Assembly: GCA_003216815.1 (NCBI GenBank)
Contig: QCIG01000004.1
Coordinates: 1-64,000, forward strand
DNA from: Prochlorococcus sp. AG-402-K14
Lineage (GTDB): Bacteria > Cyanobacteriota > Cyanobacteriia > PCC-6307 > Cyanobiaceae
Direction of reading: 5' to 3'
DNA length: 64,000 bases
Notes under the pieces: model-generated
Databases searched by the model: none
What the model was told of the DNA's origin: nothing
Seen by the model: only the letters and a program-made list of their open reading frames with translations
Made by a program: the position numbers and the translations under genes
Shown: piece after piece, positions 58,643 to 61,229 of the stretch
Layout of the letters: each line of letters starts with the position of its first letter
Numbering within the stretch: position 1 is the stretch's first letter

Positions 58643-59860
58643 TCAATACCTAAGGTCACTAGTAGCAATGTCACAAGAATTTTTATGCTCACTCCATAAT
58701 TTATTGAGGATCTTTTTAAATTGTGATTTAAATGAATCTTGAGAAAAAGAATCAGCCCAATATCTAATTAGTTCAGGATTTAAATTATTCCACAGTTGTT
58801 TTTCATTGAAAAATTCAATTGCTTCAACCAAAGACTTAACAGTCTGTGCAGGAAACAAAAGTCCAGTTGCCCCTTTCGCTGGATTAGAGTTAAAGCATTT
58901 GACCGTATCTAAAATCCCTCCCTTTCCAAATGCAATAACAGGAGCTCCTGAAGCCATTGCCTCAACAGGAGCGATTCCAAAATCCTCAACGCCAGCGTAA
59001 ACGAATGCTCTACATTGGCTCATTAGATCTTCAACCTTCTCCATACTTTGGAAGCCAATAATTTGAACTGTTGGACCTGCAAGGGCTTTTAAATATGCTT
59101 TCTCGACTCCATCACCGACAATAATCAAGGGTAATTTGAGCTTATTGAAAGCTCTCACAAGTAAGTCAACTCTTTTATTTGGTACTAATCGGCATACACT
59201 TAGATAAAAATCTTCTCTAGGTTTATTCCATTCAAAACGATTCACATTGACTGGTGGATGTAGAACCTCTGAATGCCTTCTCCAATACTTCCAAATTCTC
59301 TTTGACGTAAAATTAGAATTAGCTAACAAGTAATCAATTCTTGAGCTGCTTAATTGATCCCATTGTCTTAAGGCATGTAATTGCCATCTAATTAATGGTC
59401 CTAAACCTATTCTTCTCAAAAAAGATCGTTTCAAATAAATATTCATCTGATCCCATGCGTATCGCACAGGTGTATGTACATAACTGATGTGAAGCTGATC
59501 TGGCGAAGTCAAAATCCCCTTAGCCACAAGATGACTACTGCTAATAACTAATGGGTATCCATCGATATCAAGTTGTTCAATAGCAAAAGGTAAAAGGGGT
59601 AAATAATGTTGAACATGGGAACTTCCAAATGGTAATTGCTGGATAAAGCTAGTATTTACTTTTCTATTAAACAACCAACTACTTTTTTGTAAATTCTCTT
59701 CATTCACTAAAGAAAAGAGTTCTGGCTGTGATGCGATTTCAGTCAACAAATCATCAATGACCTTAACAACATTCTCAGCACCACCAGTAGATCCAGGAGT
59801 AAACCATTCATGTACTAACGCAATATTGCTTGGAAGATCTATAGATGAATTAACGCGCAA
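58643..59860 (-). CDS. GT4-family glycosyltransferase
   Basis: 405 residues, GT-B fold. N-terminal EWFTPGSTGGAENVVKVID, middle YLSVCRLVPNKRVDLLVRAF and the nucleotide-sugar site EDFGIAPVEAMASGAPVIAF. The donor is not known. With the sugar transferase it forms a two-gene surface-polysaccharide unit. Confidence 0.9.
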   Translation of the reverse strand: MRVNSSIDLPSNIALVHEWFTPGSTGGAENVVKVIDDLLTEIASQPELFSLVNEENLQKSSWLFNRKVNTSFIQQLPFGSSHVQHYLPLLPFAIEQLDIDGYPLVISSSHLVAKGILTSPDQLHISYVHTPVRYAWDQMNIYLKRSFLRRIGLGPLIRWQLHALRQWDQLSSSRIDYLLANSNFTSKRIWKYWRRHSEVLHPPVNVNRFEWNKPREDFYLSVCRLVPNKRVDLLVRAFNKLKLPLIIVGDGVEKAYLKALAGPTVQIIGFQSMEKVEDLMSQCRAFVYAGVEDFGIAPVEAMASGAPVIAFGKGGILDTVKCFNSNPAKGATGLLFPAQTVKSLVEAIEFFNEKQLWNNLNPELIRYWADSFSQDSFKSQFKKILNKLWSEHKNSCDIATSDLRY

Positions 59861-59991: not shown

Positions 59992-60453
59992 CTAAAAAGA
60001 TATACCTATTTTATCTAAAGATGCTATCGAAGGATCATAAATGTTGTGAAAAAGACTCCCACTAAAAGAAAATAAGTAAAGAAAACCACTAATAAGTCCT
60101 AGAAAAATAAAGTATCTAACATAGCCGTTCTTTCTTTTTAACCTAGTAAAGGAAAAAAGCATAATCAACAAGAAAATCAAACCTATTAATTCCGAGAATA
60201 TTAAGGCCGGTCTATCTACAACTAATTCAAAATTACTGCCAAAAACTAAATCATTACCATATATATTTTTCTTCAACAAGACAAAGTTAATTATTTCAGA
60301 AAAAGAAAGACTAGTGATAATAAAATACGATACTGGCTTTGTAAGCCTATTCATTGTTTTACTAAAATTCAATAAGAGCATTCCTATAAAAATAGACGCA
60401 ATTATTGGAAGGCCAGGGATCAACCAAGTAAGATTTAATAGCATAGTCCTCAT
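59992..60453 (-). CDS. NdhF N-terminus-like membrane protein, 153 aa
   Basis: Four membrane helices. The start LTWLIPGLPIIASIFIG and MNRLTKPVSY, then VDRPALIFSELIGLIFLLIM and GYVRYFIFLGLISGFL, follow the order of the first helices of NdhF/NuoL (WLIPLLPL, MNRLRKP, DPLT..., GYVRFF). The protein stops before the antiporter core, so it lacks the Glu and Lys of the proton channel. It is the last gene of a coupled three-gene operon and may be a stand-alone accessory subunit or a decayed copy. The homology is judged by eye. Confidence 0.6.
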   Translation of the reverse strand: MRTMLLNLTWLIPGLPIIASIFIGMLLLNFSKTMNRLTKPVSYFIITSLSFSEIINFVLLKKNIYGNDLVFGSNFELVVDRPALIFSELIGLIFLLIMLFSFTRLKRKNGYVRYFIFLGLISGFLYLFSFSGSLFHNIYDPSIASLDKIGISF

Positions 60454-60563
60454 CCAAGCTTACTTTTATATGCAACCGAAAGCTCCTTTATTAGTTCTCG
60501 CAGGCCAAGAAAAACAAGACCAAAAGAAACTAAAACAAGAATAATTGGAACTGCACTACTCAT
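60450..60563 (-). CDS. Single-span membrane protein, 37 aa
   Basis: ATG at 60563 to TGA at 60450. The protein begins MSSAVPIILVLVSFGLVFLG and continues LRELIKELSVAYKSKLG: one helix and a basic tail. Its stop overlaps the next ATG (ATGA), and its own ATG shares a base with the stop of the gene before (TGATG). Such tight coupling argues that it is real. No family recognised. Confidence 0.6.
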   Translation of the reverse strand: MSSAVPIILVLVSFGLVFLGLRELIKELSVAYKSKLG

Positions 60564-60706
60564 CACTTAAAAACATTTAATATTTTTTTAGCAATAAAAT
60601 CACTCAAAAACAAGATATCAATTAATAGCAAAACAAAACTTAATAAGAAAAAGTTAAGTCTTTTAAGCCATATCAAAACTCTTTTATTTTTTGATCTATT
60701 AACCAT
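60563..60706 (-). CDS. Single-span membrane protein, 47 aa
   Basis: ATG at 60706 to TGA at 60563. The basic start MVNRSKNKRVLIWLKRL precedes one helix (FFLLSFVLLLIDILFL) and a short tail ending NVFK. First gene of the three-gene minus-strand unit. It lies beside the A/T-only inverted repeat at 60715-60755, which may hold its promoter. No family recognised. Confidence 0.55.
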   Translation of the reverse strand: MVNRSKNKRVLIWLKRLNFFLLSFVLLLIDILFLSDFIAKKILNVFK

Positions 60707-60935: not shown

Positions 60936-61229
60936 ATGCAAGAAAATGATTCTATGACCAATAATCAAGGTATGGATTCAGAGAATGATGGTCAAAATAA
61001 AATCAAACCTATAAATGGTCCAGAACTTTTTAAGCAAACCTCAAGTCCTAGACCCTCACCTAAATGGATTAACAATAGAGGAGAAGAGGTAAAACAAGTT
61101 TTTGGATTTAATGAAAATGCTGAACTGGTTAATGCCAGAGTAGCAATGATCGGTTTTTTAATGCTAATACTTACTGAACTTGCTTTCGCTGGGGAACCGG
61201 CGACTCAGAAAATTTTTGGAATTAACTAG
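60936..61229 (+). CDS. hli: High-light-inducible protein (chlorophyll a/b-binding-like)
   Basis: 97 residues. The C-terminal half has the one-helix signature FNENAELVNARVAMIGFLML with the ExxNxRxAMIGF chlorophyll-binding pattern. The N-terminal ~50 residues are polar and Asn/Gln-rich, longer than in most short cyanobacterial Hli proteins. Thylakoid photoprotection. ATG at 60936 (MQEND); a second Met follows six residues later. Confidence 0.92.
   Translation: MQENDSMTNNQGMDSENDGQNKIKPINGPELFKQTSSPRPSPKWINNRGEEVKQVFGFNENAELVNARVAMIGFLMLILTELAFAGEPATQKIFGIN

Follow-up and report, generated by a model that had tools for sequence, protein, structure and literature searches.

A short, free-standing paralogue of NdhF1 in Prochlorococcus and the conservation of its TM1-TM2 loop

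Results

Open reading frames at the locus

The window analyzed here is a 64,000-nucleotide stretch of contig QCIG01000004.1 from Prochlorococcus sp. AG-402-K14, whose genome assembly comprises 1.65 Mb in 64 contigs. In a preliminary description of the window, three minus-strand ORFs of 47, 37, and 153 codons, chained by TGATG and ATGA overlaps, had been proposed to form a translation unit. These ORFs and both junctions are indeed present, and the region comprises the following features.

59992..60453, minus strand: NdhF-N, 153 aa from ATG 60453 (NF005626, 6hum_F, AlphaFold2/Foldseek, pN/pS)
ATG 60444, minus strand: conserved start of NdhF-N, giving the 150-aa form (relatives)
60325..60369, minus strand: TM1-TM2 loop of NdhF-N, NFSKTMNRLTKPVSY, residues 26-40 of the 150-aa form, the most conserved stretch
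60450..60563, minus strand: 37-aa single-helix ORF from ATG 60563, 'GxRELxKE' family (frame retention, pN/pS)
60611..60646, minus strand: conserved non-coding block, consensus TTATTAAGTTTTGTTTGACTATTAATTGATAGCTTG (pairwise identity, single copy in the genome)
60563..60706, minus strand: 47-aa ORF, rejected as a gene (its frame crosses the conserved block without a stop in just 6 of 30 relatives)
60936..61229, plus strand: HLIP-type (chlorophyll a/b-binding) protein, divergent neighbour outside the proposed unit (PF00504, 1.2e-8)
58643..59860, minus strand: group 1 glycosyltransferase, downstream neighbour outside the proposed unit (PF00534, 1.2e-25)

An alignment of 30 same-genus loci indicated that the ATGA overlap between the 37-aa and 153-aa ORFs occurs in the window alone. 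The relatives have their NdhF-N start at the next ATG, 5 nt past the TGA of the 37-aa frame, and 27 of the 30 loci have a length of 150 codons from this conserved start. The chained overlaps had been taken as strong evidence of a real unit; as the junctions are not conserved, they provide no evidence for one made of three genes.

A shortened relative of NdhF1

In a profile search, residues 5-125 of NdhF-N matched NF005626 (8.4e-14), and a search of PDB sequences returned 6hum_F (7e-7). The score for PF00662 was below the cut-off (18.8 versus 24.5 bits). The antiporter core PF00361 was not matched and the lateral helix is absent, the protein having 153 aa as compared with about 650 aa for the full subunit. 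An AlphaFold2 model computed from a 38-row alignment (pLDDT 84, pTM 0.77) contained helices at residues 3-26, 35-58, 78-101, 108-127, and 130-145, with a hairpin at 63-76. When this model was compared with the PDB using Foldseek, the best match was NdhF1 of Thermosynechococcus NDH-1, followed by chloroplast NdhF and NuoL; the fold superposed on NdhF1 over about 135 residues with a TM-score of 0.69-0.76 by query length. These searches confirmed the earlier assignment of the 153-aa product as an NdhF/NuoL-type N-terminus that stops short of the proton-channel core. Compared with NdhF1 (subunit 5 of NDH-1L, NuoL family; chain F in 6hum, 6khi, and 6l7o), with the N-terminus of which residues 5-125 align, NdhF-N is without TM5-TM16, the proton-channel core, and the lateral helix.

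The window genome also encodes an intact NdhF1 of 668 aa. Its gene is followed by one for NdhD, which lies at the end of the contig, and another gene for an NdhD-type protein is present elsewhere. Since a complete NdhF1 exists in the same genome, the 153-aa protein represents an extra paralogue in shortened form. As judged from its sequence and predicted fold, NdhF-N corresponds to the N-terminal helices of NdhF1 and forms a free-standing paralogue that does not pump and coexists with the full protein.

Constraint on NdhF-N

Within the window genus, dN/dS for NdhF-N was mostly 0.15-0.35 in close pairs, indicative of purifying selection, and differences by codon position were 0.17/0.07/0.32. 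In 15 genomes with both genes (105 pairs), pN/pS amounted to 0.265 in NdhF-N and to 0.038 in the equivalent stretch of NdhF1. By these measures the 153-aa ORF is a real, conserved gene under purifying selection, about 7-fold looser than that on NdhF1, and a pseudogene can be rejected on the basis of the pN/pS value and the fixed frame length.

Conservation in NdhF-N, as opposed to NdhF1, is centred on the TM1-TM2 loop. The fraction of genomes having the majority residue was 0.86 at residues 26-40 (TM1-TM2) and 0.74 at residues 102-112 (TM3-TM4), as compared with 0.45-0.65 elsewhere, and F27, T30, R33, L34, K36, and P37 were invariant in the 38 alignment rows. From the positive-inside rule and a NuoL-type topology, we take both loops to be stromal.

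The region upstream of NdhF-N

The preliminary description had assigned two one-helix partners to NdhF-N, and neither was borne out as such. Read in the frame of the 47-aa ORF, 6 of the 30 loci have no stop in the region, whereas the other 24 are interrupted, 23 of them by a TGA inside a conserved block. Since the frame is closed in most relatives and the block consensus itself carries the in-frame TGA, the ORF was rejected as a gene and, with it, the translation unit of 47, 37, and 153 codons. What the 47-aa frame overlies is a non-coding block, TTATTAAGTTTTGTTTGACTATTAATTGATAGCTTG, with a pairwise identity of 0.88 over 45 nt versus 0.65 for the 60 nt upstream (30 same-genus loci). The block occurs once in its own genome and precedes the 37-aa ORF in each of the 30 loci. 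It had no match in Rfam, and RNA folding of the upstream region was no better than that of shuffled sequences (z 0.19), so that a known RNA element was rejected; the block is a candidate promoter or 5' UTR element.

The 37-aa ORF is a partly eroded, leader-like ORF. A deletion has removed it from L027 and a frameshift disrupts it in L018, but at least 25 of the 30 loci have no stop over 36 codons of its frame, as compared with 9.7 expected and a maximum of 20 in 100 neutral simulations (run on the NdhF-N tree at matched divergence, with substitutions only and the consensus as ancestor). Its conservation among relatives thus holds for the frame, and for the peptide only in window-like lineages: in the window-like subset that keeps the motif (the window copy with L005, L015, L029, and L034), pN/pS was 0.51 and the second-position difference 0.13; in 17 other relatives (e.g. 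L006, L009, L012, L026), pN/pS reached 1.40 and third codon positions varied least. An open frame selected without selection on the peptide fits a ribosome-coupling leader. We therefore consider the ORF to be probably a translated leader, with a peptide constrained only in window-like lineages. As in known translated coupling leaders, the frame persists although the peptide changes, and it ends 5 nt before the conserved start of NdhF-N; unlike in them, the peptide is constrained in window-like lineages and has relatives encoded elsewhere, with which it forms a small protein family.

Further copies of this 'GxRELxKE' family, for which no database family match was found, occur elsewhere in several low-light-type genomes. 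Single-helix members of about 37-50 aa were also noted at unrelated loci (L144, L146, L147, L149, L153, L158, L159, L160; around position 1500).

In size the 37-aa ORF resembles NdhP and NdhQ, single-helix, small membrane proteins of the NdhD1/NdhF1 module (PMC7021789). The 37-aa and 47-aa ORFs and the profiles of the 37-aa family gave nothing beyond chance against PDB chains, the sequences being short and the NdhP and NdhQ chains perhaps not in the set searched. An identity with NdhP or NdhQ had no support from PDB, Pfam, or NCBIfam, and a weak Myrrcad match was well under the cut-off.

Occurrence and origin of the shortened forms

A free NdhF copy was found in 36 of 41 genomes of the window genus. 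The five genomes without it are at most 86% complete, NdhF-N being present in every genome of the genus with a completeness of at least 87%. We also sorted 22 genomes of the family by their NdhD content, a criterion independent of NdhF-N, into a Prochlorococcus type with two NdhD-type proteins and a Synechococcus type with three or four. A shortened NdhF (open frames of 146-314 aa) was present in all 10 genomes of the first type and in none of the 12 of the second. The distribution of NdhF-N thus coincides with the absence of further NdhD copies, and this may reflect a single event on the tree. The same NdhD counts, exactly two in genomes with NdhF-N and three or four in the other family members compared, were noted in connection with L003:1228-2802. 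Another larger genome, G139, has a split NdhF fragment of 263 aa.

In a scan of 84,980 species genomes, which was seeded with the loop motif and is therefore not an unbiased test of absence, the best 80 loci all came from Prochlorococcus records but one. The exception, L114 (NYVZ01000003.1), is a contig filed under a Pelagibacteraceae MAG that carries a Prochlorococcus-type NdhF-N; this filing is probably a binning error. No relatives of NdhF-N were found in the viral contigs or phage genomes searched, and carriage by phages was rejected on this basis.

Shortened forms exist in two sizes, about 300 aa in genera g60, g57, g59, g74, and g15 and about 150 aa in the remaining genera. Six aligned versions of about 300 aa have the same homologous end point after TM8. 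They still span the region of the TM5 glutamate of the WELVG motif, yet this glutamate is replaced in all six; the region is absent from the 150-aa forms. The common end point and the loss of the glutamate suggest one ancestral truncation with an early loss of pumping. NdhF3/NdhF4-type proteins of CO2-uptake NDH-1 are also paralogues of NdhF1 in the same cyanobacterial family. They differ by being full length (about 620-690 aa) and share only about 30% identity with the 300-aa form of g60, as compared with 49-60% for NdhF1 proteins. An NdhF3/F4 origin was rejected on these identities, the branching order not being resolved by the tree. A 49-row tree was compatible with a single origin of all shortened forms beside NdhF1, with modest to weak support (81/47) and long branches.

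Loop conservation in NdhF1 and NdhF-N

The TM1-TM2 loop of NdhF1, approximately SFNRT[IV]NRLRKPV, matched at a mean of 12.7 of 13 positions in 21 Synechococcus-type genomes and 12.8 in six genomes with the 300-aa form. This average fell to 9.8 in 46 genomes with the 150-aa form, and the changes differed by genus: the loop reads SFNDLFNRSRKP in the window genus, SINKKINNSREI in g18, and GFNKAMNGFKKP in a g11 genome. The decay appeared to be specific to the loop. We compared 223 columns of NdhF1 that are conserved in 22 genomes of the Synechococcus type or with the 300-aa form. In 17 genera having the 150-aa form, the ten columns within the loop showed a mean of 3.7 deviations each, as compared with 1.0 in residues 1-27, 0.59 past the loop to residue 150, and 0.38 in residues 151-300 (permutation P = 0.0006, in a test that was exploratory, the contrast having been noticed beforehand, and whose statistic ignores the kinship of genomes).

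In 23 genomes with both genes, the T, R, L, and P of the loop were each kept in 23 of 23 NdhF-N proteins and in 5, 12, 15, and 16 of the 23 NdhF1 proteins, respectively, a comparison that ignores kinship and in which the NdhF-N loops were located by a pattern containing these four residues (matched in every genome). The NdhF1 loop is intact despite a 150-aa form in G135, G131, G120, and the g83 members G219 and G185. Several genera therefore do not conform to a hand-over of the loop, which is not universal. Furthermore, the TM1-TM2 loop varies in the NdhF1 of other cyanobacterial families, so that NDH-1 in general can do without it; the conservation seems to be a feature of the window's family.

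These findings suggest that a protein distinct from NdhF1, and apparently not described before, has taken over part of its job. We read them as a hand-over of the loop's task from NdhF1 to NdhF-N, most likely within NDH-1.

Alternative functions of NdhF-N

We considered the possibility that NdhF-N works outside NDH-1, for instance as a partner of PTOX (plastoquinol terminal oxidase) or of some other complex in the thylakoid, the NdhF fold serving as a membrane anchor. No linkage to ndh genes was observed in any locus examined. The window copy has an HLIP-type gene on one side and the glycosyltransferase gene on the other, and an HLIP-type gene is also found near the copies in L135 and L142. 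In g18 (L139:2927-3867), NdhF-N is convergent with a PTOX/AOX gene (PF01786, 1.1e-16), with an overlap of 4 nt at its 3' end. Yet the locus is not fixed and neighbours differ between genera, the PTOX gene next to the g18 copy is convergent rather than co-directional, and that of the window genome lies on another contig. The decay of the TM1-TM2 loop in NdhF1, complementary to its retention in NdhF-N, suggests a task common to both proteins. We therefore regard a function outside NDH-1 as rather unlikely.

Another possibility was that NdhF-N replaces NdhF1 in a shortened NDH-1 ending in NdhD1 or NdhD2, where it would cap the face of NdhD, with fewer protons pumped per electron. The retention of the N-terminal helices and the hairpin is consistent with such a cap, and genomes with NdhF-N have two NdhD-type proteins for one full NdhF and lack the additional copies of NdhD that other members of the family have. 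However, a second NdhD is present also in genomes without NdhF-N, and the distribution may simply follow one clade, in which case the association would be a coincidence. This arrangement appears improbable.

Finally, the preliminary description had offered a reduced remnant as one option, which is apt as to history; as a duplicated ndhF still shrinking under relaxed constraint in streamlined genomes and devoid of present function, such a remnant would account for the two sizes, the looser constraint, and the lost channel residues, but it is very improbable and, in its strict form, contradicted by the selection data, since dN/dS is low, the 150-codon length is fixed, the gene is kept at different genomic positions and in all sufficiently complete (at least 87%) genomes of the genus, and its loop, better kept than in NdhF1 of the same genomes, is near-invariant over all aligned genera.

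Discussion

NdhF-N is likely to have an accessory role in NDH-1, as argued for by the complementary conservation of its loop. We propose that a copy of NdhF1 would first have been cut to about 300 aa, with loss of the TM5 glutamate, and that a second cut would have left about 150 aa, comprising TM1-TM3 and TM4. In many lineages, the free protein would then have taken over from NdhF1 the task of its stromal TM1-TM2 loop. The protein would bind the membrane arm of NDH-1, at its NdhD/NdhF1 end or close by, and would present the loop to a putative partner, acting as a subunit with an accessory or an assembly function. This part of the complex comprises the NdhD1-NdhF1-NdhP-NdhQ module, which is specific to NDH-1L and held by lipids and carotenoids (PMC7021789). 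Upstream, the 37-aa ORF would be translated mainly to couple ribosomes to the NdhF-N start, and its peptide would matter only in some lineages.

Taken jointly, the truncation history, the loop hand-over, docking on NDH-1, and the 37-aa leader form an explanation to which we assign about an even chance (a probability of roughly 0.5). A bolder statement is that the loop function of NdhF1 has moved in trans to a four-helix fragment, which would now be a lineage-defining NDH-1 subunit of Prochlorococcus and leave the NdhF1 loop free to decay; we offer it only tentatively.

No description of a shortened or extra NdhF in Prochlorococcus was found in the open-access literature searched, which agrees with the preliminary description; most subscription papers lie outside that literature, and this is not proof of novelty. 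What is new here is the decay of a near-invariant NdhF1 loop in most lineages with the 150-aa form, together with its retention in the free protein.

Prochlorococcus is a dominant ocean phototroph and has a streamlined genome, yet it has retained an extra NdhF-derived gene. If NdhF-N is a subunit of NDH-1, the lists of cyanobacterial NDH-1 subunits drawn up from Synechocystis and Thermosynechococcus would be incomplete for Prochlorococcus. Furthermore, the complementary conservation of the loop singles out T30, R33, L34, K36, and P37 for probing the role of helices 1-3 of antiporter-like subunits.
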